Origin: an uncultured Prevotellaceae bacterium
Lineage (GTDB): Bacteria > Bacteroidota > Bacteroidia > Bacteroidales > Muribaculaceae
Direction: 5' to 3'
Assembly (NCBI GenBank): GCA_900320245.1
Contig: ONRP01000041.1
Location: forward strand, 1 to 36,696
DNA: 36,696 nt
Positions 16,435 through 33,105 of the stretch are shown here, piece by piece. A program made the translations under genes and the position numbers. The notes beneath the pieces were generated by a model. It searched no databases, had not been told where the DNA came from, and saw only the letters and a program-made list of their open reading frames with translations. Position 1 is the stretch's first letter, and the number at the start of each line of letters is the position of its first letter.

Positions 16435-16456
16435 CAGCGAGCCACAGGCTCGCAAC

Positions 16457-16510
16457 ACACCGACAAACCGGCGGCGGCACAATACACCGACAAACCGGCG
16501 GCGGCACAAC
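16457..16510 (+). repeat. 27-bp tandem repeat, two copies
   Basis: Two adjacent 27-nt units (16457-16483 and 16484-16510) differ only at the last base; a degenerate third piece follows to about 16530. In the frame of the preceding gene, the unit codes for nine residues (YTDKPAAAQ). Confidence 0.8.
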
Positions 16511-16590
16511 AAACCGGCAAACTGACGGCGAGAGCAAACACAACACAACAGCAACCAGGACAGGGACAACTCCCCTGGCGCAAAAATTTA

Positions 16591-16623: not shown

Positions 16624-16652
16624 CATTATGGTGTGACCTGTGGGTTACAGTT

Positions 16653-18299: not shown

Positions 18300-18332
18300 T
18301 CTAGAGACACTAGAATATCTGGAGTTTCTAGA
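18300..18332. repeat. tctaga word array, 9-bp period
   Basis: Four 6-nt words (tctaga, actaga, tctgga, tctaga at 18300, 18309, 18318 and 18327) are separated by unrelated 3-nt linkers (gac, ata, gtt). It lies between upp and nadB. The word is palindromic, so the array can fold on itself. See findings. Confidence 0.7.
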
Positions 18333-18338
18333 ACTAAT

Positions 18339-18995
18339 TCACTCTTTCTCGCCGTAGAGCAGGTCGCCGCAGTCGCCCAAACCTGGCACGATGTAACTGT
18401 GCTCGTTGAGTTCGTTGTCGATATCACAGGTCCACAGCGTGGTCTTGTCCTCGGGCAGGTGCTGGCGCACCACCTCAATGGCCTTGGGCGTGGCCACTAC
18501 GCTGGCCACATGGATGTGCTCGGGATGACCCTTGGTCACCAGAGCCTGGTAGGCGAGTTCCATCGACGAGCCGGTGGCGAGCATCGGGTCAACGATGACC
18601 AGCGTCTTGCCGTCGAGGCGCGGGCTGGCGATATACTCGATGTGAACGACAAAGTCGTCAGTCTTGGGGAAGTATTTCCTGTAAGCCGACACAAAGGCGT
18701 TTTCGGCACCGTCAAAGAAATTCAGGAAGCCCTCGTGGAACGGCAGACCGGCACGCAACAGCGTGGCAAGCACCACACGGTCGGCCAGCACATTGCACTG
18801 CTTCACACCCAGCGGTGTGGTCACCCCAACGGTCTCGTACTGGAGTTTCTTGGAGATTTCATAGGCCATAATCTGACCCAAACGCTGGATATTAGCGCGG
18901 AAACGCAGGCGCTCTTGCTGCAAATCCTTATTGCGGATTTCGCTCATGAACTGTCCCACAAGCGAGTTTTGGTCACACAAGTTGATGATTTCCAT
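18339..18995 (-). CDS. upp: uracil phosphoribosyltransferase
   Basis: This 218-residue enzyme salvages uracil to UMP using PRPP. The PRPP-binding motif VIVDPMLATGSS is near residue 132, and the C-terminal uracil-binding YIVPGLGDCGDLLYG segment is intact; LLRAGLPF is the conserved early block. The length is usual for the family. It lies 8 bp behind ribF and probably shares its transcript. Confidence 0.95.
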   Translation of the reverse strand: MEIINLCDQNSLVGQFMSEIRNKDLQQERLRFRANIQRLGQIMAYEISKKLQYETVGVTTPLGVKQCNVLADRVVLATLLRAGLPFHEGFLNFFDGAENAFVSAYRKYFPKTDDFVVHIEYIASPRLDGKTLVIVDPMLATGSSMELAYQALVTKGHPEHIHVASVVATPKAIEVVRQHLPEDKTTLWTCDIDNELNEHSYIVPGLGDCGDLLYGEKE

Positions 18996-19003
18996 TTGTC
19001 TCT

Positions 19004-19945
19004 TTATTGTTTAGTGGTTAAGTATTCTTGCAGTAATGCTCTGGCATTGTCACGGTCCTTGGTGAGTTGGCGCTTGAGTTCGTCCAGGCCGCACATTTTG
19101 AATTCCAGCCTCAGGAAACTGATGAACTCGAGCGTGATGTCCATGCCGTAGATGTCTTCGTCGAAGTCGAACAGGTTGACCTCGATGCTCAGCCGGGTGC
19201 CGTTGTCCAGCGTGGGACGGCGACCGATGTTGGTCATTCCCTGTAAACGCTTCCCGCCCACATAGGCCAGCACAGCGTAGGCGCCATTGTGGGGCAGCAG
19301 CACATCGGGGTTGATTTCGCCCACATTGGCCGTTGGGAAACCCAGTCCCCTGCCGTTGTGGAAACCATGCACCACCTTGCCCTTGAGCACATGGGGGCGG
19401 CCCATGCAATGCATCGCGTCCACCACCCTGCCGGCAGCGATGAGCCCCCTGACAATCGTGGAACTAACGGGTGCATAGCGGCCCAGGTACTCGGGAGCCT
19501 TGACCACCTCGACGCCCAGTTGGCGCCCATGGCGGCAATAGTCCTCAAAGGTCTCTCCCCGGTTGTGGCCGAAACGGTGGTTATAGCCCGCCACAAGCAT
19601 GCTCACGCCATAGCGGTCGCGCAACAGTTCAATGAACTGCGACGAGTCGAGTTGGGCCAATTCGGGGGTGAAATCAAGGGGCATCAGCAGGTCGGGGCCG
19701 AGGGCACCGATTTGGTCCATGCGGTCCTCGGGCGGCATAATCAGTTTGAAGTCCGCATCAGGGCACAGGACCTGGCGCGGATGCCGCAAAAACGTGATGA
19801 CGAGTGACTGCTTGCCCTGGGCGGCGGCCTGCTGCTTGAGGAAATCGACCAGTGTGGCGTGTCCACGGTGCACACCGTCAAACATGCCTATTGTAGCGAC
19901 TGTGCTGCCTGCCGGCAGGCGGTCGGTTTCGCCCAGAACCTTCAT
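19004..19945 (-). CDS. ribF: bifunctional riboflavin kinase / FAD synthetase
   Basis: This 313-residue enzyme phosphorylates riboflavin to FMN and adenylates FMN to FAD. The N-terminal nucleotidyltransferase domain has IGMFDGVHRGH (residues 19-29) and the SSTIVRGL signature; the C-terminal kinase domain has GRGLGFPTANV and the GMTNIGRRPT segment. Both sites look complete. It lies between the dehydrogenase gene and upp. Its FAD product is the cofactor of the downstream NadB. Confidence 0.95.
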   Translation of the reverse strand: MKVLGETDRLPAGSTVATIGMFDGVHRGHATLVDFLKQQAAAQGKQSLVITFLRHPRQVLCPDADFKLIMPPEDRMDQIGALGPDLLMPLDFTPELAQLDSSQFIELLRDRYGVSMLVAGYNHRFGHNRGETFEDYCRHGRQLGVEVVKAPEYLGRYAPVSSTIVRGLIAAGRVVDAMHCMGRPHVLKGKVVHGFHNGRGLGFPTANVGEINPDVLLPHNGAYAVLAYVGGKRLQGMTNIGRRPTLDNGTRLSIEVNLFDFDEDIYGMDITLEFISFLRLEFKMCGLDELKRQLTKDRDNARALLQEYLTTKQ

Positions 19946-19995
19946 TCTCTGTTATTTAAACTTCCTAACTATAGTGAATAACCCGCTGTGGACTG

Positions 19996-20880
19996 TCACT
20001 TATCGATGTACTCCTTGAGAATGCGCATCGTGTCGTTGCACACCCTGATGAACATCTCGCGGTTCTTGAGCATCGTCGAGGTCTTCACCTGCTTGTCGGC
20101 ACCCGAGAACAGGTAACCCGTGTCCTTGCTCTCGAGGGCGCGCAAGGTGGGCACCACGCCGGCCTCGGGGCTCGGGATGTTGCGGCTCAGGTAGTCGGGC
20201 ACGCGGTCAATCCAGCGCGACATGGCAATGGCGCCGCTCTTCAGCAGACCCGGGTTGACGCAGTTCACCGACACGCGACGCGTCTTCATCACACTCGACA
20301 TATAGATCGAGAACAAAGTGAGGGCCAACTTGCTCTGGGCATAGGCACCCCACGGCGTGAAGTGGGACACGGCAGGGAACTCATAGGGCAACGTCACAAA
20401 ACGACGCGACACGCTGGTCGACAAGATGATGTGGCCTTCCTCCTCGATGAGCGGATAGACCTGCATCGACAACAGCACGGTGCTCAAGTAGTTGACTTGA
20501 ACAGCATGCTCAAAGCCGTTCTCTGAAATCTCGCTGCGGCGGGGCAGCAGACCGGCATTGTTGATCAGTGCCGCCACAGGACGGTTCAACGCCCGCAGCC
20601 GCGCCACGAAGTCATTGACCAATTCAAAGGAGTTCAAGTCCAACTGCAGGCACGAGATGTCCTTGTTGCGGGTGAGCGTGCGCAGTTGCGCGGCATAACT
20701 CTCGGCCTTCTGGATATCGCGGCTGGCCAACAGCACCGCCTTGCCCTGTTCGGCAAGTTTGCGGGTAATCACACTGCCCATGCTGTCGGTAGAACCCGTG
20801 ACGATATACAACGGCTTCTCCTGTTCAGCCATGATTTTGTCGTTATCGGTCATCATATCATAGTTTTTTGTTGGGTTCAT
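19996..20880 (-). CDS. short-chain dehydrogenase/reductase
   Basis: This 294-residue classical-type SDR has an N-terminal cofactor loop TGSTDSMG, the NNAGLL segment, an STSVSRR strand with the catalytic Ser, and YAQSK (YxxxK). The closing part matches the NAD(P)-dependent oxidoreductases related to retinol dehydrogenase-like SDRs; the substrate is unknown. An ATG at 20880 is chosen because the promoter element at 20896-20903 lies inside the longer frame (start 20985), making the first 35 codons untranslated. It leads the unit SDR-ribF-upp-nadB. Confidence 0.85.
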   Translation of the reverse strand: MNPTKNYDMMTDNDKIMAEQEKPLYIVTGSTDSMGSVITRKLAEQGKAVLLASRDIQKAESYAAQLRTLTRNKDISCLQLDLNSFELVNDFVARLRALNRPVAALINNAGLLPRRSEISENGFEHAVQVNYLSTVLLSMQVYPLIEEEGHIILSTSVSRRFVTLPYEFPAVSHFTPWGAYAQSKLALTLFSIYMSSVMKTRRVSVNCVNPGLLKSGAIAMSRWIDRVPDYLSRNIPSPEAGVVPTLRALESKDTGYLFSGADKQVKTSTMLKNREMFIRVCNDTMRILKEYIDK

Positions 20881-20895
20881 AATTGTTCTAACCTG

Positions 20896-20903
20896 CAAAG
20901 TTA
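20896..20903 (-). promoter_or_regulatory. -7 promoter element of the SDR-ribF-upp-nadB unit
   Basis: Minus-strand TAACTTTG matches TAnnTTTG and lies 15 bp before the chosen ATG at 20880. It decides against the longer start. No clear -33. Confidence 0.5.
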
Positions 20904-21087
20904 ATAAAACTCCGCAATAACTCACCTTATATCGCGATAAAAAATGGACTAATTTTCTTTTCGTGCACCTTGGAGCGCGCTTCACTGAGATGAAAATACC
21001 GATTAAGTTGTTAAACCATATCTGATTTTATCGTCTAAAATTAAAAGGCAAGCATTTTGCCTCCAACCCTAAAACATCGTCCATTTT

Positions 21088-23751
21088 ATGAGAAATATCA
21101 TTCTCTCACTCCTACTCATACTAACGGCAGCGGCATCGCTGCCCGCCCAGGATATTGATGCCATATCGGCAAGGATTGACCTGCAGCGCACGGAGTTTCC
21201 TCAAGAGAAAATCCACGTGATGACCGACCAGGGCAGTTATCTGGCAGGAGACACCATCTGGCTGCGCGCCTGGGTGGTGGATGCTGCAAGCCACCAGCCG
21301 GTCAACGCCAGCCAGTTTGTGTATGCCGAACTGGTGTCACCCATCGACTCGGTGACTGCGCGTGTCAAGATTCACCCCGATGCCAATGGGGTGTTCCGGG
21401 GATACCTTCCCCTGGACATCGACCTGCCCGAGGGACGTTACCAATTGACGGCCTACACGATGTTCATGCAGAGTGTGGGCGTGGACTATTTCTACAGCCA
21501 GCCCATCGAGATTGCGGCCTTGCCGTCGTTGCGACAAAGCATCGTCAGCAAGTGTGTGAGATATCAGGACGAGGTGGACGTCACGCTGCGCTACGAGAAC
21601 AAGGCCGACAGCAGCCTGTGCCCCTACAACCAGTTCAATTACGGGACCGGCAGCGACTTCTGGTATGAAAAACAATACCGTAACCGCACCAGTGAAGAAC
21701 ACCTGACCCTCAAGGGCAAAGAGGCCAACCGGTCGGCTATACTGGTGCAGTTTGACCGGTATGCCAAGTACATCGCCCTGCCTCCACAGGAAACCCTCGA
21801 CGTGACCTTTTATCCCGAGGGCGGCTACCTGATCCCTGATGTGGAGAACCTGGTCACTTTCAAGTTGACCAACACCAGCGCAACGTCCCTGTCGCAGGTC
21901 GGGGAATTGGTCGACCAAAACGGGGACGTGGTGACACAACTGCAGGTTGAGCACGATGGAATGGGCCTCATCAGATTCACGCCCCACGGCAACAGCACCT
22001 ACACGGCGCAATGGAGAGATGCCTTCGACGAGACGTTCTCTGTCCCGCTGCCTCAGGTGCGGCAAGACGCCACCGTGCTGCAGGCACGCCGCAGCGATGA
22101 CGGCCTCGTCACGCTATCGGCCGCCGGAGCCAAAAGCAGTGATGGGCTGATTGTGCTGCAACAACGCGGGCTGATGTTAGCCTGCGCGATGGACTCGATG
22201 ACGGTTCGTGAAGCAGATTTGCCGGCCGGGGTCGTGCAGGCAATGCTGTTTGACGAGGATATGCGCTGCCTGAGCGAAAGGCTCTTCTTTGTGGGCGCTT
22301 CATCACCTTCAGAACCCACGGTGTCTACCGACCGCGAGACCTACTCCGACCGCGAGCCTGTGAAGGTCAACGTGGACTTGAGCAGTTTGACGAGCCACAC
22401 GGGCAATTATGCGGTATCGGTTATTGACGGACAAGCCAGCGAGCCATCTGAGGGGAACATTCTTGCAAACTTGTTGCTGCAGAGCGAATTGCGAGGTCGC
22501 ATCAACCAGCCCAATTACTATTTCGAGCAAGGCGACACCATCGACAGGAAGCAGCGCGAGCACCATCTGGATTTGCTTATGCTCACCCAAGGCTGGCGAC
22601 GTTATGACATTCCCCGTGTGCTGCGAGGACGTCTTGCCGAGCCTCAGTACCCCATCGAGATGTCACAGGTGGTGACTGGCCGTGTCCTGAGCGATTGGCG
22701 CAAGAAGCCGGTGGCCGGTGGCAAGGTCAGCCTGATTGCCCCCCGTGTGGGATACAGTTCAGTGACTTTTACCGACTCATTGGGTGAATTTGCCATCAAT
22801 ATGCCGCTGCTGCCCGATAGCGTGGATTGTGTCGTGATGGCCGAGAACATCAAGGGGAAAAAACAGATGAACCTGGAACTGGACGACGAACAGTATCCCT
22901 CGACCTACTACACGACACCCGAGAAGTCCATTTCGGCGGCACCCACTTTCAGCGATGACCAGTTGTGGAGATTGGAACACAGCGGTGACTGGAGGCACAT
23001 CATCCTCAACGAACTGATGGTGACGGCCTACAGGCCCCGGCACCATTCCAACGAACGCAACCCCTATAACCTGACCAACAGAAAAATCAAGGAAAAGGAT
23101 ATCACGACACTGGATGGTGTAGCACGGGAAATCCCAAACCTCATGGTGATGGGCGGCTCGCTCTATACCCCTGGCGGCAGGGCCAAAGACCACGTGACCA
23201 TCTATGTTGACGGGGAGCCGGTTGCAGCAAACTTCGAGACCGACGAGAGCGCCATCAGCCTATTGTCAGAGTACATCTCACCCATTGAGCCGAAACCGCA
23301 AAGCAATATCTTCTTAGGATACCAGGGCACGACTGACCTGTCAGAATTGTCGATTGCACAGAGCATGATTTCGTTCCAGGATGTGGAATACATCTACTTC
23401 GTGAGGAATGCCCATGGTGGTGGCAGCCTCTTTATCGAACACCGCGAGGGATATCTGGGTGACCGCAAGGAGCCCAGCATCTACCTGAGAATCATCCAGC
23501 CCATGGGTGCACAGACTCCAGTCGAATTCTATTCGCCACGGTATGACCAGGGTGATGGGGGCCGCGAACCCGGCTCTGACCTGCGCAAGGTGCTGTACTG
23601 GAATCCCTGCGTGACCGTCAATCAAGACGGAACATCCACGTTTGACTTCTATGCCAGCGATGCCCACAACACCACCTATATCGTCACCATCGAGGGCATC
23701 GGCAATGACGGCACACTCTTCCGCACCACCCACCAGGTGACCAAACGCTGA
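21088..23751 (+). CDS. large exported protein with MG2-like and carboxypeptidase-regulatory-like domains
   Basis: This 887-residue protein has a signal peptide (hydrophobic residues 4-16, cleavage near LPAQD). The N-terminal region (EKIHVMTDQGSYLAGDTIWLRAWV) matches the macroglobulin MG2-like fold, and DVTFYPEGGYLI is the conserved block that follows it in this Bacteroidetes family. Near residues 530-590 a VTGRVLSDWRKKPVAGGKVSL segment resembles a carboxypeptidase-regulatory-like/Ig domain. Residues about 660-760 recall a TonB-receptor plug (LDGVAREIPNLMV, VTIYVDGEPV), but no barrel follows. It is likely periplasmic or outer-membrane associated; its partner is unknown. It stands alone. Confidence 0.8.
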   Translation: MRNIILSLLLILTAAASLPAQDIDAISARIDLQRTEFPQEKIHVMTDQGSYLAGDTIWLRAWVVDAASHQPVNASQFVYAELVSPIDSVTARVKIHPDANGVFRGYLPLDIDLPEGRYQLTAYTMFMQSVGVDYFYSQPIEIAALPSLRQSIVSKCVRYQDEVDVTLRYENKADSSLCPYNQFNYGTGSDFWYEKQYRNRTSEEHLTLKGKEANRSAILVQFDRYAKYIALPPQETLDVTFYPEGGYLIPDVENLVTFKLTNTSATSLSQVGELVDQNGDVVTQLQVEHDGMGLIRFTPHGNSTYTAQWRDAFDETFSVPLPQVRQDATVLQARRSDDGLVTLSAAGAKSSDGLIVLQQRGLMLACAMDSMTVREADLPAGVVQAMLFDEDMRCLSERLFFVGASSPSEPTVSTDRETYSDREPVKVNVDLSSLTSHTGNYAVSVIDGQASEPSEGNILANLLLQSELRGRINQPNYYFEQGDTIDRKQREHHLDLLMLTQGWRRYDIPRVLRGRLAEPQYPIEMSQVVTGRVLSDWRKKPVAGGKVSLIAPRVGYSSVTFTDSLGEFAINMPLLPDSVDCVVMAENIKGKKQMNLELDDEQYPSTYYTTPEKSISAAPTFSDDQLWRLEHSGDWRHIILNELMVTAYRPRHHSNERNPYNLTNRKIKEKDITTLDGVAREIPNLMVMGGSLYTPGGRAKDHVTIYVDGEPVAANFETDESAISLLSEYISPIEPKPQSNIFLGYQGTTDLSELSIAQSMISFQDVEYIYFVRNAHGGGSLFIEHREGYLGDRKEPSIYLRIIQPMGAQTPVEFYSPRYDQGDGGREPGSDLRKVLYWNPCVTVNQDGTSTFDFYASDAHNTTYIVTIEGIGNDGTLFRTTHQVTKR

Positions 23752-23860
23752 ATGCGCCAGCCCTGAATTCCCGGGAAGTGGGATAACGGCCCGCGTCAAG
23801 TATTGGACAAAACAATTATGCTCAAATTGTCCAAAAATCGCTTTTCTAAGATAATTGTCT

Positions 23861-23868
23861 TATCTTTG
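23861..23868 (+). promoter_or_regulatory. -7 promoter element of the esterase-psuK-psuG unit
   Basis: TATCTTTG matches TAnnTTTG and lies 21 bp before the ATG at 23890. It shows that an upstream in-frame ATG (23803) is not used. Confidence 0.5.
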
Positions 23869-23889
23869 CCAAAGAAAACCGGTTTCTTT

Positions 23890-24825
23890 ATGGCAAACAA
23901 GAAGAAAAGCAAAAAATGGCTATGGATCACGCTGGTGATTTTGGGCCTGTTGGCCACAACAGCAGCATTGTCTCTGTGGCCCCGTAACAAGATTCCCACT
24001 GTGAGCCGTGGGACACTGGAACGCTTCCCGCAGTTCCAGTCGCAGTATGTCCCGCCAAGGGATGTCGTCGTCTGGCTGCCAGAGGGTTACAAGACGGGCG
24101 ACTCGTGTGATGTGCTTTACATGCACGACGGGCAGATGTTGTTCGATGCCACCACGACATGGAACGGGAAGGAATGGCGTGTCGATGAGGTGGCGAACAG
24201 TATGATCCAGGACGGCTCCATCAGGCCGTGCATCGTCGTGGGCATCTACAATACCGATGACCGCCTCGCCGAGTATTTCCCCACCAAGACATGGCAGCAC
24301 GTCAGCGAAGCCGACCGGCAGAAAGCCGACATCTCAAAACTCACGGGCGACGCCTATCTGCAATTCATCGTCAAGGAGTTGAAGCCCTTCATCGACGAGC
24401 GTTACAAGCCCTTGACGTCGCGTGAACACACCTTCATGATGGGTTCCAGCATGGGCGGGCTGATTTCGCTCTATGCCCTGTGTGAATACCCGCAGGTGTT
24501 CGGCGGCGTGGCCTGTCTCTCGACCCACTTGTCGATGGCACAATTGCCTAATGGCGTTAGTGGAGACGCATGGGCCGCGGGCTTTAGGGACTATGTGGAC
24601 CAGCATTTGCCCGAGACCAACAGCAGCCTCATCTACATGGACCACGGCACCGTGGATCTTGATGCAAAATACAGTCTCTATCAGGATGAACTCACCAGAG
24701 TCATCTCCTACAAATACTGGGACAATGAACACTTCACTGTACACGTGTATGATGGGCATGGCCATAGCGAGACCTACTGGGCAAAACGCCTTGACGTACC
24801 GCTTTTATACTTACTTGGCAAATAA
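23890..24825 (+). CDS. membrane-anchored esterase (esterase D / enterochelin esterase-like)
   Basis: This 311-residue alpha/beta hydrolase has an N-terminal anchor: a lysine-rich start (MANKKKSKK) then a hydrophobic helix to about residue 30. The LYMHDGQMLFD block is typical of the esterase D/Fes-like family. The nucleophile Ser is in GSSMGG near residue 184, the acid is probably in DHGTVDLD, and the His is in DGHGHSETYW. The rest should face the periplasm. It ends 9 bp before psuK and seems to share its transcript, although the two activities have no obvious link. The substrate is unknown. Confidence 0.85.
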   Translation: MANKKKSKKWLWITLVILGLLATTAALSLWPRNKIPTVSRGTLERFPQFQSQYVPPRDVVVWLPEGYKTGDSCDVLYMHDGQMLFDATTTWNGKEWRVDEVANSMIQDGSIRPCIVVGIYNTDDRLAEYFPTKTWQHVSEADRQKADISKLTGDAYLQFIVKELKPFIDERYKPLTSREHTFMMGSSMGGLISLYALCEYPQVFGGVACLSTHLSMAQLPNGVSGDAWAAGFRDYVDQHLPETNSSLIYMDHGTVDLDAKYSLYQDELTRVISYKYWDNEHFTVHVYDGHGHSETYWAKRLDVPLLYLLGK

Positions 24826-24834
24826 TACCGAAAA

Positions 24835-25737
24835 ATGGACGGATATGTAACTGTTATTGGTGGTGTGAATATGGACATCTCGGCGGCTTTGACAGCGCCG
24901 TTTGTCCCTGCCGACTCGGTGCCGGGGCAGGTGACCCTGGGCTGCGGCGGAGTGGCACGCAACATCGCCCACAACCTGCGGCTGATGGGACACGAGGTGA
25001 AATTCGTGAGCCTCTTTGGCGGCGAGACCTTCGGCGAGATGTGCTGGCGCGAGTGCCAAGCCATCGGGCTGGACCTCACGCTGAGTGAGCGCCGCGAAGG
25101 CCTGCGCAACGGCCTGTACCTGTGTGTCAACGACCAGACAGGCGACATGATTGCCGCCGTCGCCGATACCGACATCGTGGGACACATCACACCCGGTTTC
25201 CTGGAACAGCGCCTTGAGACCATCAACGCATCGGCTCTTGTGATGGCCGACACCAATATCGAAACCGAAACCCTGCTGTACCTCATCGACCACTGCACGG
25301 CACCGCTCATCATCGACGCCGTGAGCACCGCCAAGGCGCCGCGCGTCATCAAGGCGTTGCAGCAGAGCCGGTCACGACAATTGTACGCCCTGAAACTCAA
25401 CCTGCAGGAGGCACAGGCCGTGACCCATTGTCCAACGGCCCAAGAAGCGGCCGTCCGCCTCACGGCCATGGGCAGCGGTCAGGTCTACATCACCCTGGGC
25501 AGCGACGGCGTGTACTGCAGCGACGGCACCCGCCATGAGCACCTGAAAGCCATCCCCTCGCGCGTCATCAACACTACTGGGGCCGGTGATGCCTTTATCG
25601 CCGGCGTGGCCCATGCCCTGATGGGCAACACCCCCTTCCCCGACTGTGCCCAAACAGGACTCAAGGCCGCCCACGCCACCCTGCTCTCGCTCCAAACCGT
25701 CAATCCCGACATCAACGACTATATCCAAGGCATCTGA
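24835..25737 (+). CDS. psuK: pseudouridine kinase (PfkB family)
   Basis: This 300-residue PfkB-family sugar kinase has the N-terminal GGVNMD and GGVARNIAHNL blocks and the C-terminal anion-hole signature NTTGAGDAF. Adjacent psuG makes pseudouridine the likely substrate: PsuK phosphorylates it to pseudouridine 5'-phosphate, which PsuG splits to uracil and ribose 5-phosphate. Kinase specificity is inferred from this pairing. No pseudouridine transporter is visible nearby. Confidence 0.87.
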   Translation: MDGYVTVIGGVNMDISAALTAPFVPADSVPGQVTLGCGGVARNIAHNLRLMGHEVKFVSLFGGETFGEMCWRECQAIGLDLTLSERREGLRNGLYLCVNDQTGDMIAAVADTDIVGHITPGFLEQRLETINASALVMADTNIETETLLYLIDHCTAPLIIDAVSTAKAPRVIKALQQSRSRQLYALKLNLQEAQAVTHCPTAQEAAVRLTAMGSGQVYITLGSDGVYCSDGTRHEHLKAIPSRVINTTGAGDAFIAGVAHALMGNTPFPDCAQTGLKAAHATLLSLQTVNPDINDYIQGI

Positions 25738-25769
25738 TATGTCCAATATATCCTATGTCCAGTTTATCT
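25738..25769 (+). repeat. degenerate word array between psuK and psuG
   Basis: Words tatgtcc, tatatcc, tatgtcc and tttatct begin at 25738, 25747, 25754 and 25763 (spacings 9, 7, 9). It resembles the other word arrays but has no mirrored arm, so it is listed cautiously. Confidence 0.4.
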
Positions 25770-25795
25770 AGTACAACCCTAAAAACCAACAAGAT

Positions 25796-26707
25796 ATGAA
25801 CCAATACCTTTCCATCTCACCCGAAGTGCAGCAGGCACTTGACGAGGGCCGCCCCGTGGTTGCCCTCGAGTCGACCATCATTTCACACGGCATGCCCTAT
25901 CCCCAGAATGTGGAAACGGCCCTCAAAGTCGAGCAGACCATCCGCGACGGCGGTGCCACGCCCGCAACCATTGCCATCATCGGCGGCCGCCTCAAGGCGG
26001 GCTGCACCCCCGAGGAAATCGAATACCTGGGCCGCAAAGGTCAAGCCGTGACCAAGGCGTCGCGCCGCGACCTGCCCGTGCTCATCGCCCGCGGCGAGGA
26101 CGGTGCCACCACCGTGACCACGACGATGATTATCGCTGCCATGGCAGGCATCAAGGTGTTTGCCACCGGTGGCATCGGCGGCGTGCACCGCGGTGCCGAG
26201 ACCACGATGGACATCAGTGCCGACCTCGAGGAACTGGCCATGACACCCGTGATGGTCATCTGCGCCGGCGCCAAGTCCATCCTTGACTTGGGACTCACCC
26301 TGGAATACCTTGAGACCAAGGGTGTGCCGGTCATCGGCTACGGAACCGAGGAACTGCCCGCCTTCTACACCCGTCACAGCGGTTTCAAGGTGGATTACCG
26401 CATCGACACCCCCGAGGACCTGGCCGCCGCTTTCCGCGCCAAACTCGACATGGGGCTGCAGGGCGGCATGCTTGTCACCAACCCCATCCCCGAGGAGTAC
26501 TCGATGCCTGCCGATGTCATCAACAAGGCTATTGACGAGGCCATCGACGAGGCCAACCGCCTGGGCATCCGCGGCAAGGAAACCACTCCCTTCCTCCTGG
26601 CCAAAGTCAAAGACCTCACCGGCGGCGACAGCCTGGCCAGCAACATCCAACTGGTGCTCAACAATGCCCGACTCGCGGCCCGCACGGCTGCCGCGCTCAT
26701 GCGCTAA
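25796..26707 (+). CDS. psuG: pseudouridine-5'-phosphate glycosidase
   Basis: This 303-residue enzyme reversibly splits the C-C glycosidic bond of pseudouridine 5'-phosphate to uracil and ribose 5-phosphate. Diagnostic blocks are ALESTIISHGMPYPQN with the catalytic Glu, TVTTTMIIAAMAGI, FATGGIGGVHRGAE, and CAGAKSILD with the Lys that forms the ribose adduct. The length is typical. The uracil produced could be salvaged by Upp (18339-18995), encoded elsewhere in the window. Confidence 0.95.
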   Translation: MNQYLSISPEVQQALDEGRPVVALESTIISHGMPYPQNVETALKVEQTIRDGGATPATIAIIGGRLKAGCTPEEIEYLGRKGQAVTKASRRDLPVLIARGEDGATTVTTTMIIAAMAGIKVFATGGIGGVHRGAETTMDISADLEELAMTPVMVICAGAKSILDLGLTLEYLETKGVPVIGYGTEELPAFYTRHSGFKVDYRIDTPEDLAAAFRAKLDMGLQGGMLVTNPIPEEYSMPADVINKAIDEAIDEANRLGIRGKETTPFLLAKVKDLTGGDSLASNIQLVLNNARLAARTAAALMR

Positions 26708-26753
26708 TCCAGCACTCAGGCCAGCGTTTCCCGGCCGTTAATCACCCTTATCG

Positions 26754-26786
26754 ACAGGTGCATCACCGTCCCTGTAATCTTTTTTG
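26754..26786 (+). terminator. intrinsic terminator after psuG
   Basis: A short stem ACAGG/CCTGT (26754-26758 with 26771-26775) is followed by a T-run at 26778-26785, 47 bp after the psuG stop. The stem is weak but the position and T-run fit. Confidence 0.5.
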
Positions 26787-26820
26787 TGCATAAATGGGCC
26801 AATAATCAGAGATTATTGCT

Positions 26821-26828
26821 TACTTTTG
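26821..26828 (+). promoter_or_regulatory. -7 promoter element of the zinc-ribbon gene
   Basis: TACTTTTG matches TAnnTTTG, 50 bp before the ATG at 26878. No good -33. Confidence 0.5.
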
Positions 26829-26877
26829 CAGGTTGTAAGTAAACGAAGTATAAAAACCCGATAATAAGACTACGATT

Positions 26878-28356
26878 ATGAAATGTCAACATTGCGGACA
26901 TGAAGTTCCCGAAGGTTCCTCCTTCTGCAACCATTGCGGTTATCGCATGAGTACCACGGTCACCTGTTCCTATTGCCACAAAACCATGCCGGCTTCATCG
27001 GTATTCTGCCCCCACTGCGGCAAGGCTATCGACAATGCCATGAGTGTGGCACAGAAGTCTGTGACACAGGCTGCGGCTCCTGCCGCGGCAACTGCAGGCA
27101 ACGGCCCCGACCCCGAAAAGGCCACCGATGCCCAGCGCGCTGCCCAACGCCGTGCCGCCGCCAAACCCGTGAAACCCGTCACCGCTGATGATGATGACGA
27201 TGACGATGACGACGACGATGATGACAACGGACAGGAAGGCCGTTCCAACTTCAACCGTAATCTCATCATCGGCATCGTGCTCGCAGCAGTGCTCATCGGC
27301 TTGTTGAGCATGCTCAAACACTGCAACAGCCAGGCTAACGATGACCTGAAGGCCAGGGGCGACAGCGTTGCCGCCATGGCCGACAACAGCCAGGACGAAG
27401 CCGCCATTCTGGGGGCCGAACTGAGTCGTAACAACTTCACCGAGGACGGTGCCTCCATCGGCGGCGCCGTGAAATTGCACGGTACCGACCCCGACACCCC
27501 CGACCGCATCTTGGGTGTGACCTACAAGAACGATGCTGACCGTCCCTTCATCAAGATTTACCAACTGACGCGTGACGGCGGCGGCTGGAAGACCGAACTG
27601 GGCCAGACCAAGTATCTGGACGGACGCAACATCATCATGGACAATTCGTCGCTCATCGCCGATGCCATGTATGTGCCCCGCGCAGTGACCGTCGACGGCA
27701 AGCAGTGCCTCTACTTCGCCTTCCTGAACCACCTCAAGGGTGCCGGCGAGGGCAACACGGGTCGCGTGACCCTGGCCCTGTATGAGCCCGAGGGCAAGAA
27801 GTTGACCACGCTGAACTATGACGGCCCCATCCGCTCGCGCAGCGACGGCCGCCAGTACGTCTACAGCCGCGGACCTCTCGAGAGCGTCAGCGGCAGCGAG
27901 CGCAACTTCCTGCAGCAGGAGGCAGTACACATCAGCGCCATCCGCGTAGCCACTCCCGAGGAGATTGAGGCCGAAGAAGAGGCCAAAGCCAAGGAAGAAG
28001 AAGAAAAGGCCCTGGCCGGCGAAGAGAACGCCGACACCAAGTGGGACCACGACAATGCCGAGAATATGGACAAACTGAAAGAGGGCGAAGATGTGCAGAT
28101 GAAGTCCACCCAGTATGACAAGCCCCTCTTCAAGATGGACGAGATCAAGGAAAAGGTGGAAACCAGCAAGTACCTCGTCTTCCTCGACAAGAAAGGTATG
28201 GTATATGGCTTCAATAAGGACAGCCGCAAGTACTTCACCATCTACTCCTCGGCACAGGGCATCAGCAAGAACGGCGAAACCAGCGTACTGATCAAGACCG
28301 CCAACGGCAACATCAACTACGACCTGGTGCATGACAAGGCCAAAGCAGCGAACTGA
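26878..28356 (+). CDS. double zinc-ribbon membrane protein
   Basis: This 492-residue protein starts with two zinc ribbons: CQHC...CNHCG (residues 3-22) and CSYC...CPHCG (about residues 31-50). An Ala-rich linker, a run of 13 Asp residues (about 104-116) and a single membrane helix (IIGIVLAAVLIGLLSML, about 131-150) follow. The rest is a soluble domain, with a Glu/Lys-rich stretch near residues 365-380 (EAEEEAKAKEEEEK). The ribbons and Asp tract should be cytoplasmic and the large domain outside. I do not recognise the large domain. It is closely followed by the microprotein at 28362. Confidence 0.82.
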   Translation: MKCQHCGHEVPEGSSFCNHCGYRMSTTVTCSYCHKTMPASSVFCPHCGKAIDNAMSVAQKSVTQAAAPAAATAGNGPDPEKATDAQRAAQRRAAAKPVKPVTADDDDDDDDDDDDDNGQEGRSNFNRNLIIGIVLAAVLIGLLSMLKHCNSQANDDLKARGDSVAAMADNSQDEAAILGAELSRNNFTEDGASIGGAVKLHGTDPDTPDRILGVTYKNDADRPFIKIYQLTRDGGGWKTELGQTKYLDGRNIIMDNSSLIADAMYVPRAVTVDGKQCLYFAFLNHLKGAGEGNTGRVTLALYEPEGKKLTTLNYDGPIRSRSDGRQYVYSRGPLESVSGSERNFLQQEAVHISAIRVATPEEIEAEEEAKAKEEEEKALAGEENADTKWDHDNAENMDKLKEGEDVQMKSTQYDKPLFKMDEIKEKVETSKYLVFLDKKGMVYGFNKDSRKYFTIYSSAQGISKNGETSVLIKTANGNINYDLVHDKAKAAN

Positions 28357-28361
28357 CAAAT

Positions 28362-28469
28362 ATGACTCCCGAGAAACGCTATTACTTCTGGTTCTTCCTG
28401 AAATTGGACATCATCCTGGTGGGGCTGCTCGCCCTGCTGTGGTGGCTGGCCAATGTAGTGTATGCGTGA
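28362..28469 (+). CDS. 35-residue single-pass membrane microprotein
   Basis: An ATG five bases after the stop of the zinc-ribbon gene opens 35 sense codons and ends with TGA at 28467-28469. The peptide begins MTPEKRYYFWFFLKLD, then has a hydrophobic helix (about residues 17-35, IILVGLLALLWWLANVVYA). Positive residues before the helix predict an N-in topology. Its tight spacing behind one gene, 33 bp before the next, and its clean amphipathic-then-membrane composition support a real gene. It may be a partner of the zinc-ribbon membrane protein; that is inference. Confidence 0.6.
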   Translation: MTPEKRYYFWFFLKLDIILVGLLALLWWLANVVYA

Positions 28470-28502
28470 TCCCTATCACCCGAAACCAAAATAATTATCA
28501 TA

Positions 28503-29636
28503 ATGGCAGTAGAAATCAGAGAAATCCAACCCACCAAGCGCAACCTGCTCAAGTTTGTGCATTTTCCCATCGATGTCATCTACCGCGACAACGAGTACTA
28601 CGTACCGCCACTGGTCACCGATGAAGTGAACACCCTGCGCCCCGACAAGAACCCGGCATTTGACTTCTGCGAGGCCGTCTATTTCCTGGCCTACCGCAAC
28701 GGGGAAATCGTGGGACGCATCGCCGGCATCATCAACAAGGTGGTCAACGAGCGCGCCAACAAGAAAGAGGCCCGCTTCAGTTACATCGACTTCATCGACG
28801 ATGCCGAGGTGGCCGACGCCCTCATCGATGCCGTGACCCGGTGGGCCAAAGGCAAAGGCATGGAACACCTGACAGGTCCCCTGGGCTTTACCGACATGGA
28901 TCCCGAGGGTTTGCTCGTCGAGGGCTTTGACCGCATTGGCACTACAGGCGCCGTGTACAGCCACGCCTATTATCACAAGCACTTGGAGCGCATGGGCTTC
29001 GTCAAGGATGTGGACTGGCTGGAGTTCCTGATCACCATCCCCACCGAGGTCCCCGAGAAGATGCACCGCATCGCCACTTTGATCAGCGAACGCATGAATG
29101 TGACGACCATCAAGTACACCGACCGCAAGCAACTGGTCAAGGACTACGGTGACGCCATCTTCAAACTGATCAATGTGGCCTATGACGAGTTGTTCGGCTA
29201 CTCGCCGCTCACCGACAAGCAGATCAAGCACTACATCAAGATGTACCTGCCCTTCCTGCCTCTCGACGACCTGTCGATGGTCATCGACAAAGACACGCGC
29301 GAACTCGTCGGTGTGGGCATCACGATTCCCTCGATGTCCAAGGCACTCATCAAGAGCCGTGGCCGCCTGTTCCCCATGGGATGGAAATACCTGCTCGACG
29401 CCTTCAAGCACAACAATGTGGTGGACCTGATGCTCATTGCCGTCAAGCCCGAACTCCAGAACAAGGGTGTGAACTCGCTCATCTTTGACGACCTCATCCC
29501 CGTGTTCAACAAGCATGGCTATACCCATGCCGAGAGCAACCACGAGTTGGAACTCAACTCCAAGGTGCTCAAGCAATGGGAATACTTCGAGTATGACCAG
29601 CACAAGCGCCGCCGCGCCTACACCAAGGAAATTTAA
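28503..29636 (+). CDS. GNAT-like N-acetyltransferase family protein
   Basis: This 377-residue soluble protein has an N-terminal part (residues 1-190) with YYVPPL, FLAYRNGEIVGRIAGIIN and a TGPLGFTDMDPEGLLVEG block, and a C-terminal part with LVGVGITIPS and IAVKPELQNKGVNSLIFDDL, which resembles the acetyl-CoA binding Q/RxxGxG/A region of GNAT enzymes. Large Bacteroidales proteins of this type are annotated as N-acetyltransferases; substrate unknown. It lies 33 bp after the microprotein and 70 bp before pgi, with a word array in that gap. Confidence 0.72.
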   Translation: MAVEIREIQPTKRNLLKFVHFPIDVIYRDNEYYVPPLVTDEVNTLRPDKNPAFDFCEAVYFLAYRNGEIVGRIAGIINKVVNERANKKEARFSYIDFIDDAEVADALIDAVTRWAKGKGMEHLTGPLGFTDMDPEGLLVEGFDRIGTTGAVYSHAYYHKHLERMGFVKDVDWLEFLITIPTEVPEKMHRIATLISERMNVTTIKYTDRKQLVKDYGDAIFKLINVAYDELFGYSPLTDKQIKHYIKMYLPFLPLDDLSMVIDKDTRELVGVGITIPSMSKALIKSRGRLFPMGWKYLLDAFKHNNVVDLMLIAVKPELQNKGVNSLIFDDLIPVFNKHGYTHAESNHELELNSKVLKQWEYFEYDQHKRRRAYTKEI

Positions 29637-29654
29637 CCACAGAAATCCAAACCC

Positions 29655-29687
29655 ACTAGACCATCTAGATTATCTAGACTTTCTAGA
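29655..29687. repeat. tctaga word array, 9-bp period
   Basis: actaga, tctaga, tctaga, tctaga at 29655, 29664, 29673 and 29682, separated by cca, tta and ctt. It shares its word and exact 9-bp period with the array at 18300-18332. It lies between the GNAT-like gene and pgi, and an A-run follows. Confidence 0.75.
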
Positions 29688-29706
29688 AAAAAACAAATAA
29701 AGCAAC

Positions 29707-31026
29707 ATGAACAACAAGATTCAAGTCATCAGCAAATACGCCCTTCAAGGGCTGGAGACACAGGACCTGTGCAATGCTGCCCTCGCCGCCAAGCAGACGC
29801 TCGAGAGCGGCTCGGGTGCCGGCAACGACTTCCTGGGCTGGCTTCACCTGCCCAGTAGCATCGACGAGCAGCAACTCGCCAGCATCGAGCAGACCGCTGC
29901 CGTGCTGCGCGAGCAGTGTGAGTATGTCATCACCATCGGCATCGGTGGCAGTTACCTGGGCGCCAAGGCCGTTATCGAGGCCCTGAGCGACCACTTCGCT
30001 GCCTACAAGTCGGGCAGTGGCCCCAAGGTGCTCTTTGCCGGCAACAACATCGGCGAGGACTACCTCTACGACCTGATGGACCTGGTGCGCGGACACAAGT
30101 TCGGCATCATCGTCATCTCCAAGTCGGGAACCACCACCGAACCCGCTATCGCCTTCCGCCTGTTCAAGGAGATGCTCGAGCAGCAGGAGGGCAAGGCATT
30201 CGCCCAGCGCAACATCGTTGCTGTGACCGATGCCCGCCGCGGTGCCCTGCGCAACCTGGCCACCCAGGAGGGCTATGCCACCTATGTCATCCCCGATGAC
30301 GTGGGCGGCCGCTTCTCGGTATTGACCCCCGTTGGCCTGCTGCCCATCGCCGTTGCCGGATTCGACATCCGCGCCCTCGTGGCCGGTGCCGTCGAGATGG
30401 AACAGGACGGCGACGAGCAGGTGCTCAACTATGCCATCGCCCGCAACGCCCTCTATCAGCAGGGCAAGAAGGTCGAGATTCTCGCCAACTTCACCCCGCG
30501 CCTGCACTTCGTCGCCGAGTGGTGGAAACAACTCTACGGCGAGAGCGAGGGCAAGGGCCACAAGGGCATCTTCCCCGCCAGCGTGGACTTCACTACCGAC
30601 CTGCACAGCATGGGACAGTGGATTCAGGACGGCGAGCGCACCATCTTTGAGACGGTGCTCAGCGTGGGCGACCAGCAGCATGAGGTCATCATCCCCACCG
30701 ACGAGGCTGACCTCGACGGGCTGAACTACATCGCAGGCAAGAACGTGGACTACGTCAACAAGATGGCCGAACTCGGTACCCGCCTGGCTCACATCGACGG
30801 CGGTGTGCCCAACCTGCTCATCACCATGCCCGCCGTGACCGAGCGCTATATGGGCCAATTGATCTACTTCTTCGAGAAAGCCTGCGGCGTGAGCGGCTAC
30901 ATGCTTGGCGTCAACCCGTTTGACCAGCCCGGTGTCGAGGCCTACAAGAAGAACATGTTCGCCCTGCTCGAGAAACCCGGCCACGAAGAGGCCACCAAAG
31001 CCATCAAAGAAAAACTCAAACAATAA
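29707..31026 (+). CDS. pgi: glucose-6-phosphate isomerase
   Basis: This 439-residue enzyme interconverts glucose 6-phosphate and fructose 6-phosphate in glycolysis and gluconeogenesis. It is the short bacterial form. Visible motifs are [11 protein letters not shown] (about residues 78-88), the sugar-phosphate loop [13 protein letters not shown] (about residue 138), and the C-terminal [14 protein letters not shown] with the catalytic Lys. The ATG at 29707 follows an A-rich leader, and the family-typical length supports it. Confidence 0.95.
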
Positions 31027-31049
31027 CAAATAATCAATTAACGCCTAAT

Positions 31050-31140
31050 AATCAAACAACATGAACAACAATAAACAACAAAAACAACCAATTATTATAT
31101 TGTTGTTAACGTTGTTCAGCGTTGTTAAAGTTGTTTGATT
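31050..31140. repeat. mirrored aacaac / gttgtt word array (long interrupted hairpin)
   Basis: The left arm (31050-31088) has aacaac at 31055, 31064, 31074 and 31083; the right arm (31102-31140) has gttgtt at 31102, 31111, 31121 and 31130. Spacings are 9, 10 and 9 in both. The outermost word is extended to an 11-bp match. The words pair perfectly; the 3-4 nt linkers between them mostly do not. It lies between pgi and the CoA-transferase gene. Loop of 13 nt, A/T only apart from one C. Confidence 0.85.
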
Positions 31141-31164
31141 TAACTAGAAACTACTAACTAAGAA

Positions 31165-32664
31165 ATGATTTATCCGATTCTTTCGGCCGAGGAAGCCGCC
31201 GAATTTGTACAAAATGGCTTCACCGTAGGTGTTTCGGGCTTTACATCACCCGGTTGTCCTCAAGCAGTTCCCGTTGCCATCGCCGAGCGCGCCAAGCGCG
31301 AGCATGAGGCAGGCCGTGAATTCAAAATCAACCTCTTCTCTGGCGCTTCGACCAGCGACCACATCGACGGCGAGTTGACCCGTGCCGATGCCCTGAACTT
31401 CCGCACACCGTACCAGTCACACCCCGACATGCGCAAGGCCATCAACGCCAATGCCATCCACTATAACGACCGCCACCTGAGCGAACTGGCACAGGAGTTC
31501 CGCTATGGCTTCTACGGCAAGATGGACATCGCCATCGTTGAGGCCCAGAGCATCACCGACGACGGTGAACTCGTGCTGGGTACCTCGATGGGCAACACCG
31601 CCACCTGGCTCAAGATGGCCGACAAGGTGATTGTCGAGGTCAACGACCAGATTCCCGAGACCATCCGCGGCATGCACGACGTCTACACGCCCGTCGACCC
31701 GCCTTACCGTCGCGAGATTCCCATCTATACGCCTCACGACCGCGTGGGCACTCCCACCGCCCATGTCGACCCCAGCAAGGTCCTCGGCGTTGTCAAGACG
31801 TCGCTGCCCATCAGCAAGGAGGGTGCCTTCACCCCCGTTGATGAGGTGACCGCAGCCATCGGCCGCAACGTGTGCGCCTTCCTGGTCAATGAATTGAAGG
31901 CCGGCCGCATCCCCAAGGAGTTCCTGCCCCTGCAGAGCGGTGTGGGCAACATCGCCAACGCCGTGCTCGACGCCCTCGACAAGAGCGACGACATTCCTCC
32001 CTTCGAGATGTACACCGAGGTGATCCAGGACAGCGTGCTCGAGTTGCTCGAGAGCGGCAAGTGCAAGTTTGCCAGCACCTGCTCGATGACCTTCTCCAGC
32101 GGCGCCATGACCGAGTTCTTCGAGAAGGGCGAAGCCCTGCATGGCAAGGTGCTCATGCGTCCCAGCGAGATCAGCAACAACCCCGAGGTGGTTCGCCGTC
32201 TGGGCGTCATCACGATGAACACCGCCATCGAGGCCGACATCTATGGCCACATCAACTCGACCCACGTCAGCGGTACGCGCCTGATGAACGGTGTGGGCGG
32301 TTCGGGCGACTTCACCCGCAACGCCTACATCAGCATCTTCCTGTGCCCGTCGATCAAGAAGGACGACTGCATCAGCACCATCGTGCCCATGGTATCCTAT
32401 CCTGACCACAACCCGCACTCGGTCGACATCATCATCACCGACCAGGGTATCGCCGACCTGCGCGGCAAGGACCCCGTCCAGAGCGCCCACGAGATTATCG
32501 AGAAGGCCGCTCATCCCGTCTATCGTCCCCTGCTGCGCGAGTACCTCAGCCTCGCCAAGAAGGGCCACGTGATGATGAACCCCGACATCGCCTTCGCCAT
32601 GCACAGCACGCTTATTCACGACGGCGACATGCGCAAGACCGACTTCGCCAAGTTCATGAAGTAA
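31165..32664 (+). CDS. succinate / acetyl-CoA:CoA transferase family protein
   Basis: This 499-residue protein belongs to the acetyl-CoA hydrolase/transferase (Ach1/Cat1) family. The N-terminal VGVSGFTSPGCPQAVP, GTSMGNTATWL and PLQSGVGNIANAV blocks are present, and the probable catalytic Glu that forms the CoA thioester lies in MNTAIEADIYGHINSTHV. In propionate- and acetate-producing Bacteroidales this enzyme is usually a succinate or propionate CoA-transferase; exact substrates cannot be told. The word array at 31050-31140 lies upstream and the one at 32721-32775 downstream. Confidence 0.9.
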   Translation: MIYPILSAEEAAEFVQNGFTVGVSGFTSPGCPQAVPVAIAERAKREHEAGREFKINLFSGASTSDHIDGELTRADALNFRTPYQSHPDMRKAINANAIHYNDRHLSELAQEFRYGFYGKMDIAIVEAQSITDDGELVLGTSMGNTATWLKMADKVIVEVNDQIPETIRGMHDVYTPVDPPYRREIPIYTPHDRVGTPTAHVDPSKVLGVVKTSLPISKEGAFTPVDEVTAAIGRNVCAFLVNELKAGRIPKEFLPLQSGVGNIANAVLDALDKSDDIPPFEMYTEVIQDSVLELLESGKCKFASTCSMTFSSGAMTEFFEKGEALHGKVLMRPSEISNNPEVVRRLGVITMNTAIEADIYGHINSTHVSGTRLMNGVGGSGDFTRNAYISIFLCPSIKKDDCISTIVPMVSYPDHNPHSVDIIITDQGIADLRGKDPVQSAHEIIEKAAHPVYRPLLREYLSLAKKGHVMMNPDIAFAMHSTLIHDGDMRKTDFAKFMK

Positions 32665-32720
32665 TTCAAACTACAAATTACGCTAATTGAACCAATTGGC
32701 ATCCGCACGACGGAATTGAA

Positions 32721-32775
32721 AACAAGGAATACAAGAACAACAATTCAACCGATTGTACATCTTGTATTTCTTGTT
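32721..32775 (+). repeat. mirrored acaag / cttgt word array, possible terminator
   Basis: Left words aacaag, tacaag, aacaat (32721, 32730, 32739) are mirrored by attgta, cttgta, cttgtt (32752, 32761, 32770); all spacings are 9 bp. The loop is 7 nt (32745-32751). A T-run follows, so on the plus strand it could terminate the CoA-transferase transcript. An AATT-centred word run with the same period (32675-32698) precedes it, just after the stop codon. Confidence 0.75.
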
Positions 32776-32833
32776 TTTTCATATTTCTGCCCGCTAAGAG
32801 CCCTATTCGGGGCGGCAGAGATTATTATACCTT

Positions 32834-33030: not shown

Positions 33031-33088
33031 GATTAAGGATTAAAGATAGCCTCAGCAACCATTAAACATTATCCTTTATCCATTAACC
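33031..33088. repeat. mirrored 7-bp word array, degenerate
   Basis: Left words gattaag, gattaaa (33031, 33038) and right words attatcc, tttatcc, attaacc (33068, 33075, 33082) have a 7-bp period and are partly complementary. A perfect CAAGTT/AACTTG hairpin at 33091-33103 follows, next to the stop of the minus-strand lipoprotein gene. Confidence 0.5.
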
Positions 33089-33105
33089 ATCAAGTTAAAC
33101 TTGAT

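Follow-up and report, generated by a model that had tools for sequence, protein, structure and literature searches.

The window analysed here, 36,696 nt long and the whole of contig C51 of the genome (G000; 3,022,080 bases in 73 contigs) of a Candidatus Sodaliphilus species, raises the question of whether arrays of short words in several of its intergenic spacers have in common the step at which the words recur rather than the words themselves. The initial annotation had listed six such sites, had placed all of them between genes, and had claimed that the step is conserved and the word is not. Both claims held. All six sites fall outside the genes called by our own scripts, and the arrays, which are real, belong to a pattern that runs through the lineage, in which steps of 7 and 9 bases dominate, the words are many, and one word is replaced by another at the same spacer in relatives; words turn over faster than steps. 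That the steps are kept while the words are replaced favors a shared process over one sequence family.

The evidence comes from scans of spacers (30–600 bases) in the window's own genome and in its genus. Among 222 spacers in 437 kb of the own genome, three-copy 5-mers were found at step 7 in 19, at step 9 in 18 and at step 10 in 1, as against 0.1 (step 7) and 0.05 (step 9) in dinucleotide shuffles; 222 length-matched pieces of called genes gave step 7 in 0 and step 9 in 1. Pairwise recurrence of 6-mers in this genome peaked at 7, 14, 21 and 28 and at 9, 18 and 27, with 332 versus 18.6 in shuffles at step 7, 190 versus 18.9 at step 9 and 50 versus 15.6 at step 10, the remaining steps being mostly no more than about threefold above shuffles. 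Consistent with these findings, three-copy words at steps 6–12 occurred in 2, 72, 7, 38, 5, 3 and 1 of the 653 spacers of a genus pool (1.24 Mb, seven Candidatus Sodaliphilus genomes), where mononucleotide shuffles gave at most 0.4 per genome. A criterion with no preset word (five units, mean identity of at least 0.62 over all columns) picked out 4, 75, 1 and 18 spacers at steps 6–9 and 0 at steps 10–13, with 1 at step 7 in a single shuffle (one of the 18 step-9 matches, L019 12331, resembles coding DNA that escaped the gene calls). In a replicate set (371 kb, 204 spacers) the counts were 26 at step 7, 9 at step 9, 2 at step 8 and 1 each at steps 10 and 12. The pool, word-free and replicate counts therefore demonstrate that steps 7 and 9 dominate in this genus. 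The excess over a shuffled background implied by the annotation is thus present in genome and genus alike, and a 10-bp step as a separate class is not supported (step 10 in 1 of 222 own-genome and 5 of 653 pool spacers).

Replacement of the word is evident at orthologous spacers. (The names upp, nadB, pgi, psuG, acetyl-CoA hydrolase, GNAT-like and PfkB-type kinase were assigned by reading translations, with no family search.) The pfkB–psuG spacer carries step-9 arrays of RTCCA in G016, TCTAG in G024, TCTAGA with TCTGGA in G025 and TCCAG in G036, and step-7 arrays of GTTAGGC in G008 and ACTAANN in G023. The upp–nadB spacer holds longer arrays of TCTAGA in G024 and G036, degenerate ones in G016 and G025 and no TCTAGA array in G008. 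The hairpin bounded by TCAAACAAC and GTTGTTTGA in the pgi–acetyl-CoA hydrolase spacer is kept in G024 and G019 (L149, L152), and other species have step-7 arrays in that spacer, with longer ACTANNN arrays in several congeners where the window has a short step-7 leader. As to the GNAT–pgi spacer, G031 (L153) and G016 (L169) have TCTAGA arrays in it, G035 (L155) has another word and G022 (L159) has no TCTAGA array; identity of the GNAT-like gene to the window's is 97% in G031, 96% in G016, 80% in G035 and 93% in G022, and pgi is 87% identical in both G031 and G035. That the GNAT-like identity is 97% in one and 80% in the other despite equal pgi suggests recombination.

Conservation of array position at a given locus, which the initial annotation had put up for testing among relatives, is not supported. 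Among 68 orthologous codirectional spacer pairs, which are not independent in that one spacer may enter several pairs, arrays were present in both members of 14, in one member of 28 and in neither of 26, and the 14 compare with 11.2 expected from the margins (Fisher p = 0.20); 8 of the 14 have the same step and 6 have different steps. What the arrays share is a type of spacer (downstream of a gene and, for step 7, rarely between divergent genes), not a locus. In particular, step-7 arrays in the genus pool lay in 32 of 210 ++ spacers, 29 of 248 −− spacers, 8 of 77 +− spacers and 0 of 91 divergent (−+) spacers (0/91 versus 69/535, Fisher p = 1.5e-5), and yet the divergent spacers are longer (median 249 versus 104–150 bases). 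Arrays of three TCTAGA units at Bacteroidales and unplaced loci from metagenome-assembled genomes (MAGs) were found in 2 of 48 divergent spacers versus 83 of 332 others (p = 0.0006), and 18 of 124 lay inside called genes; these MAG loci were picked for TCTAGA. Between codirectional genes lay 61 of the 72 step-7 and 27 of the 38 step-9 spacers of the pool, and with arrays in 61 (step 7) and 27 (step 9) of all 458 codirectional spacers, they may therefore affect the flanking genes. Among codirectional spacers of 40–350 bases (57 step-7, 20 step-9, 306 neither), TTAG-type 7-arrays lay nearer the upstream stop in 25 of 27 cases and CTAA-type ones nearer the downstream start in 21 of 32 (4 of 4 and 13 of 21 in the replicate set), 11 of 70 step-7 clusters being of neither type (9 of them near the stop). 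Array-free spacers share this lean (CTAA, 19 in the first 40 bases and 45 in the last 40; TTAG, 33 and 25), and the 7-arrays therefore follow local composition, with no dedicated signal needed. Stop-codon-free arrays can sit unseen in called genes, which biases these sets toward words with TAA or TAG.

To return to the window, each site was compared, through its best six-column word over four units at steps 7–10, with dinucleotide shuffles of its spacer (Table 1). The two arrays annotated as TCTAGA, at 18300 and 29655, were borne out with a step of 9, each being equalled by 0 of 300 shuffles; the former (TCTAGA gac ACTAGA ata TCTGGA gtt TCTAGA) has no fold (z −0.6), and the latter folds (z −5.2). 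The site offered as a weaker case, at 25738, is indeed weak when taken alone (equalled by 11 of 300 shuffles, or 2 of 200 with step 9 only; no fold, z −0.3), and support for it comes from the relative G016, where that spacer holds RTCCA six times at a step of exactly 9. The stretch 31050–31140, read before as a word array on a 9/10 step, is likewise weak as a direct array in its A-rich spacer (35 of 300; step 9 only, 9 of 200); what stands is a hairpin in which four AACAAC words and four GTTGTT words, at steps 9, 10 and 9 in each arm, pair with linkers unpaired (z −5.2 for the spacer). Its end motifs have seven matches in the fetched DNA, some with a like segmented layout. The leader beside it is a step-7 match lying 115 nt into the spacer and 4 nt short of the spacer end. 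At 32721–32775 the claimed array dissolves into two or three loosely matching words (equalled by 1 of 300 shuffles; step 9 only, 0 of 200) in a terminator-like hairpin (z −6.7), and a bidirectional terminator, not a word array, is the likeliest reading of the element. The 7-bp version at 33031–33088 (CCATTA-type) was confirmed, with 0 of 300 shuffles equalling it and a period-7 tandem repeat at 33059–33090. Rfam 15 gave 0 matches at gathering score in the window, and a scan for consensus terminators, which needs three G–C stem pairs and loops of 3–8 and would thus miss the AT-rich 32721 element too, found no G+C-rich stem with a T run at any of the six sites.

Table 1. Array sites and associated elements in the window
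Feature	Position	Strand	Context or property
Step-9 array of degenerate TCTAGA words	18300–18332		Between upp and nadB, both on the minus strand
Eroded step-9 array, TCC-containing words	25738–25769	+	Between PfkB-type kinase gene and psuG
Step-9 array, ACTAGA/TCTAGA x3	29655–29687		Between GNAT-like gene and pgi
Segmented hairpin TCAAACAAC...GTTGTTTGA	31052–31138		Between pgi and acetyl-CoA hydrolase gene
Short step-7 leader AACTAGA AACTACT AACTAAG	31142–31162	+	Just 5′ of start codon at 31165
AT-rich hairpin, 19-bp outer stem, T run on + strand	32718–32778		Between convergent genes
Step-7 array, CCATTAA-type, loosely complementary left part	33031–33088		Fold z −2.7

Other repeats were seen alongside these. 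The 9-mer GCGGATGCC or its complement, at 32698–32706 of the window, occurs in 9 of 236 spacers of G000 and 7 of 165 of G032, some beside arrays, and is a further dispersed spacer motif; GCTCGCAGTTTA or its complement links a GCTCGC/GCGAGC stretch to TTTAGAG arrays (L006, L012, L021, L022). The window also holds 18-bp tandem repeats inside a gene (12909–12993), 27-bp tandem repeats between open reading frames ending at 16434 and 16653 (16453–16530), and a 32-bp stretch duplicated perfectly in tandem toward the 3′ end of the nadB-like gene (16778–16843), past which the reading frame departs from a second open frame (16645–17031) that looks like the usual C-terminal part.

Within a unit, conserved and free columns can be told apart. 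The 18 five-unit 9-arrays have six conserved columns (identity 0.79–0.98) and three adjoining free ones (0.48, 0.44 and 0.45); a column-shuffled null gave 0.57, 0.62 and 0.43 for the last three columns, and the between-column variance was 0.084 versus 0.055 in simulation. Because 16 of these 18 arrays are TCTAGA-like, the six-plus-three layout is established for TCTAGA-like words. The 75 step-7 arrays have four columns at 0.88–0.95 and three at 0.75, 0.64 and 0.52, which is close to the null. In 149 TCTAGA arrays, deviations from the word were commonest at positions 1 and 6 (101 and 99) and rarest in the CTAG core (32–44 each), and in this set the contrast between word and linker is inflated because it was picked by two exact neighboring words. 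Step 9 extends to other words: 21 of 38 step-9 spacers have no CTAG, with words such as ACAAC, ACAAT, CGAAT, TCCGT and TCCAG, three of the 21 being A/T runs or a trinucleotide repeat (L006 16126, L019 17902, L192 9049). A palindromic word as the rule for step 9 was rejected; it fits TCTAGA, CTATAG, CTTAAG and TCCGGA and fails for TCCAG, TCCGT, ACAAC and CGAAT. CTAG itself is scarce in called genes (271 versus 1385.5 expected; seven genus genomes, 1.01 Mb), the corresponding figures for spacers being 200 versus 256.8.

The TCTAGA word is unevenly distributed. Its pairs numbered 45 in spacers versus 1 in genes. TCTAGANNNTCTAGA occurs 71 times in the own genome (1 for a reversed control); among 36 congeners its count ranges from 0 to 132 (controls 0 to 2), and five of them lack it; in other families of the order, 4 of 24 genomes had one to three, not above controls (0 to 3). 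Among 296 genomes drawn from the phylum, own included, three TCTAGA units in a row were found in the own genome only. A scan of named genomes for four such units in a row gave at least 117 stretches, and among the matches listed were Prevotella and other Bacteroidales, MAGs of Victivallales, Kiritimatiellae and Lentisphaeria, and one MAG labelled Proteobacteria. The genomes behind twelve loci chosen for holding a match had 3 to 352 copies of TCTAGANNNTCTAGA versus 0 to 5 for controls, and the 352 copies in about 4.1 Mb of G363 (the genome of L101, labelled Victivallales) exceed the count in all 37 Sodaliphilus genomes searched; taxonomic labels are those of the records. The cultured Prevotella strain tf2-5, which has arrays, contained 24 TCTAGA pairs. 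Arrays of any word were then counted in spacer sets called without codon scoring. One stretch from each of 20 other families of the order (136 spacers) gave 1 at step 7, 1 at step 8 and 0 at step 9, and positions 1–50000 of E. coli K-12 (32 spacers) gave, as a control, 0 at step 7 and 1 each at steps 8, 9 and 12. The Bacteroidales and unplaced MAG loci, with spacers of 30–700 bases and minus those with TCTAGA, had steps 7, 8, 9 and 10 in 35, 13, 18 and 9 of 350; with 13 at step 8 and 9 at step 10, the two-step rule is therefore sharp in this genus only and looser there. At the Victivallales, Kiritimatiellae and Lentisphaeria loci, 32 further spacers held 1 step-7 and 1 step-9 array.

On balance, we favor the reading that the arrays are short tandem repeats of degenerate units, altered by one or more whole units at a time, probably via replication strand slippage. 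Arrays would arise in spacers downstream of genes and grow by local duplication of units, with slippage as the copying step, and words would be replaced by other words within the genus, unit lengths of 7 and 9 being strongly favored. Either only those units whose word re-pairs after slipping would be copied, such that the word is purified and the linker drifts, or selection on the word would keep it intact while the linker drifts. Hairpins would arise where the word is self-complementary or where both arms carry arrays. Whole-unit changes and the likeness of neighboring units fit the prediction of slippage. In the GNAT–pgi spacer, G016 is shorter than G000 by exactly 18 bp, or two 9-bp units, and in the pgi–acetyl-CoA hydrolase spacer G023 and G020 are separated by one 7-bp gap in the array plus substitutions, the one clear step-7 case. 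In all fetched DNA, genes included, likeness in the variable columns is highest for close units and falls with distance (lags 1–6, step 9: 0.62, 0.65, 0.60, 0.58, 0.56 and 0.54, against 0.57 at lag 1 and 0.62 at lag 6 when the order is shuffled; step 7: 0.65, 0.65, 0.61, 0.57, 0.52 and 0.58, order-shuffled 0.59 to 0.63). Two-unit jumps as the preferred change were rejected, the higher step-9 mean at lag 2 than at lag 1 (0.652 versus 0.619) being borne by only 61 versus 52 arrays and the 7-class leaning the opposite way by arrays (50 versus 78). Loss of MutS or of SbcCD as the cause was also rejected: MutS matched 61 of 61 genomes (56 over the cut-off) and SbcD 54 of 61 (38 over the cut-off; sbcC was not searched), the own genome included in each case.

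Several observations weigh against slippage at two favored unit lengths. Steps 8 and 10 also exceed shuffles, though they lie far lower than 7 and 9. The avoidance of divergent spacers is not uniform, as step-7 arrays were found in 2 of 28 such spacers of the replicate set, and the step-9 deficit in the genus is not significant (3/91 versus 33/535, p = 0.34). Length changes are not always whole units: 18 plus 2 bases separate G000 from G016 in the pfkB–psuG spacer, a upp–nadB pair differs by 1 base, and G000 and G024 show several other gaps in the pgi–acetyl-CoA hydrolase spacer. The six-to-three contrast rests on 18 spacers, 16 of them TCTAGA-like, and needs an extra step of the kind outlined above because plain slippage would copy the linker with the word. 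A few 7-mers are reused at many spacers per species, the TCTAGA word dominates in distant gut bacteria too, which slippage alone does not predict, and, in the genus only, mutS is over the cut-off in 34 of 37 genomes and sbcD in 29 of 37, so that neither is lost.

An unlikely alternative is that the arrays are selected RNA stem-loops: hairpins between cistrons, serving to stabilize or process the transcript, in which words form the stem segments and linkers the internal loops. The sites at 29655, 31050 and 32721 fold far better than shuffles, whereas those at 18300 and 25738 have no fold. Codirectional spacers have a median z of −4.8 in the 9-class (8 spacers), −2.1 in the 7-class (17) and −1.8 when array-free (100); the symmetric loops of strong 9-class hairpins have 16 G–U versus 5 A–C facings (135 versus 91 in array-free spacers), and the placement of TTAG-type arrays after stops and CTAA-type arrays before starts would also suit stem-loops. 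However, the own-half pairing rank of 41 step-7 spacers (0.327) is no better than that of 254 array-free ones (0.316), the sense-strand lean of the own genome (11 versus 4) is gone in the pool (26 versus 24), and TCCAG and TCCGT arrays cannot self-pair yet keep step 9. Deviant words in TCTAGA arrays speak both ways. Complementary pairs made up 38 of 330 within-array pairs versus 13.5 expected (between-array null; maximum of 2000, 30), with examples such as TATAGA..TCTATA in L111 and TCTGGC..GCCAGA in L156 and with single cases that look compensatory, but identical deviant pairs are commoner still (62 versus 13.8 expected), and random flipping of deviant words leaves mirrored pairing unchanged (the observed value is attained by 229 of 400 nulls). 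Permute and rotate nulls for mirrored pairing were rejected (0 of 400 each); we prefer the flip null because those two also shift deviant units from the array ends. Complementarity is lower between mirrored linkers than between random ones (0.17 versus 0.28), a difference explained by likeness within an array. The hairpin as a general rule thus found no support in arm-swap, orientation-flip and sense/antisense tests, and pairing may be relevant to individual loci, for instance those of the TCAAACAAC..GTTGTTTGA family.

Distinctly improbable, in our view, is that dispersed or mobile repeats account for the arrays, with ectopic templating or a small mobile element copying them and giving each species its own words. 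Species-specific 7-mers are common to several spacers (TAACTCC and TTTAGAG in G000, CCTAAAG and AACTGAA in G032, CTCAACC-type in G015), a reuse that suggests either a trans-acting cause or copying from one locus to another; GCTCGCAGTTTA, which adjoins a TTTAGAG array as its flank, is present at 4 of 236 own-genome spacers, the TCAAACAAC..GTTGTTTGA hairpin exists in several copies, and TCTAGA arrays are found in distant phyla. Nevertheless, no common flank was noticed around TCTAGA arrays in the displayed spacers, where no formal search was made, and the words at one spacer differ between species by small changes (TCTAGA, TCTGGA, TCCAG). We are more doubtful still of a dedicated copying process, other than polymerase slippage, that writes arrays into transcribed spacers; its geometry would set the step at 7 or 9 with about three bases per unit free, and the word would come from the site or from other arrays. 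If it were true, TCTAGA at a like step in gut Bacteroidales, Victivallales and Kiritimatiellae would imply movement of the process, or of its templates, across phyla. Very unlikely, too, are arrays of sites for a DNA- or RNA-binding protein assembling at step 7 or 9: six conserved and three free columns resemble sites with spacers and TCTAGA is palindromic, but many words are used at one step within one genome, TCTAGA pairs range from 0 to 132 among congeners, words are replaced at orthologous loci, and TCTAGA is not avoided in genes beyond the scarcity of CTAG (19 versus 14.8 expected). Ordinary intrinsic terminators, named in the initial annotation as a possible full account, suit the layout at 32721 (long stem, T run, convergent genes) and are extremely unlikely in every case, given sites without a fold (18300 and 25738), a terminator scan that found none at the six sites (and would miss 32721 too), and the codirectional setting of 61 of 72 step-7 and 27 of 38 step-9 spacers.

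Among known systems, the STRR heptamers of heterocystous cyanobacteria are short tandem repeats with degenerate units and named word families; the arrays described here differ in that the word is replaced between species. The 7-step class has the marks of heptanucleotide (LSSR/STRR-like) repeats, namely a head-to-tail 7-nt unit, frequency above chance and location between genes, and the 9-step class departs from them in its unit of 9. Heptanucleotides are described as outnumbering the other classes of long simple repeat in the majority of genomes studied, and a polymerase-tied slippage has been proposed for them (Mrazek et al. 2007, as cited in the passages of PMC4679880 and PMC4692102 drawn on here). 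Those repeats share with ours the 7-nt unit and a phylogenetically scattered occurrence. In ours, by contrast, there is a second unit, 9 long, that has the six-plus-three layout, each genome uses many words, and words are replaced at orthologous spacers. Direct repeats of TAACTGA are described from Beggiatoaceae, Cyanobacteria and five Bacteroidetes (MacGregor 2015, PMC4679880) and are, like ours, intergenic heptamers, often just 5′ of start codons and in forward orientation; G032 has the related AACTGAA. In the passages cited one word is described, whereas here there are many, and 1608 kb of genus DNA contained 0 TAACTGATAACTGA. The GGGAATC heptamers of Xanthomonas and GGGGA(C/T)T of Nostoc (Rehm et al. 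2015, PMC4692102, where Calothrix heptanucleotides are also mentioned) likewise have conserved and free positions, an inverted pair, and variation in length and sequence at one spacer in two species but, unlike ours, are G-rich and quadruplex-forming. The literature surveyed, including the passages cited of PMC4679880 and PMC4692102, gave no description of a 9-step class. The 7-step class is therefore of a known kind, heptanucleotide repeats, and the 9-step class beside it is partly new. These comparisons indicate that spacer repeats in bacteria can keep their unit length better than their sequence, with two favored lengths in one genus, and they make the question of heptanucleotide dominance testable through the second length, the six-plus-three layout and the turnover of words in like genomes.

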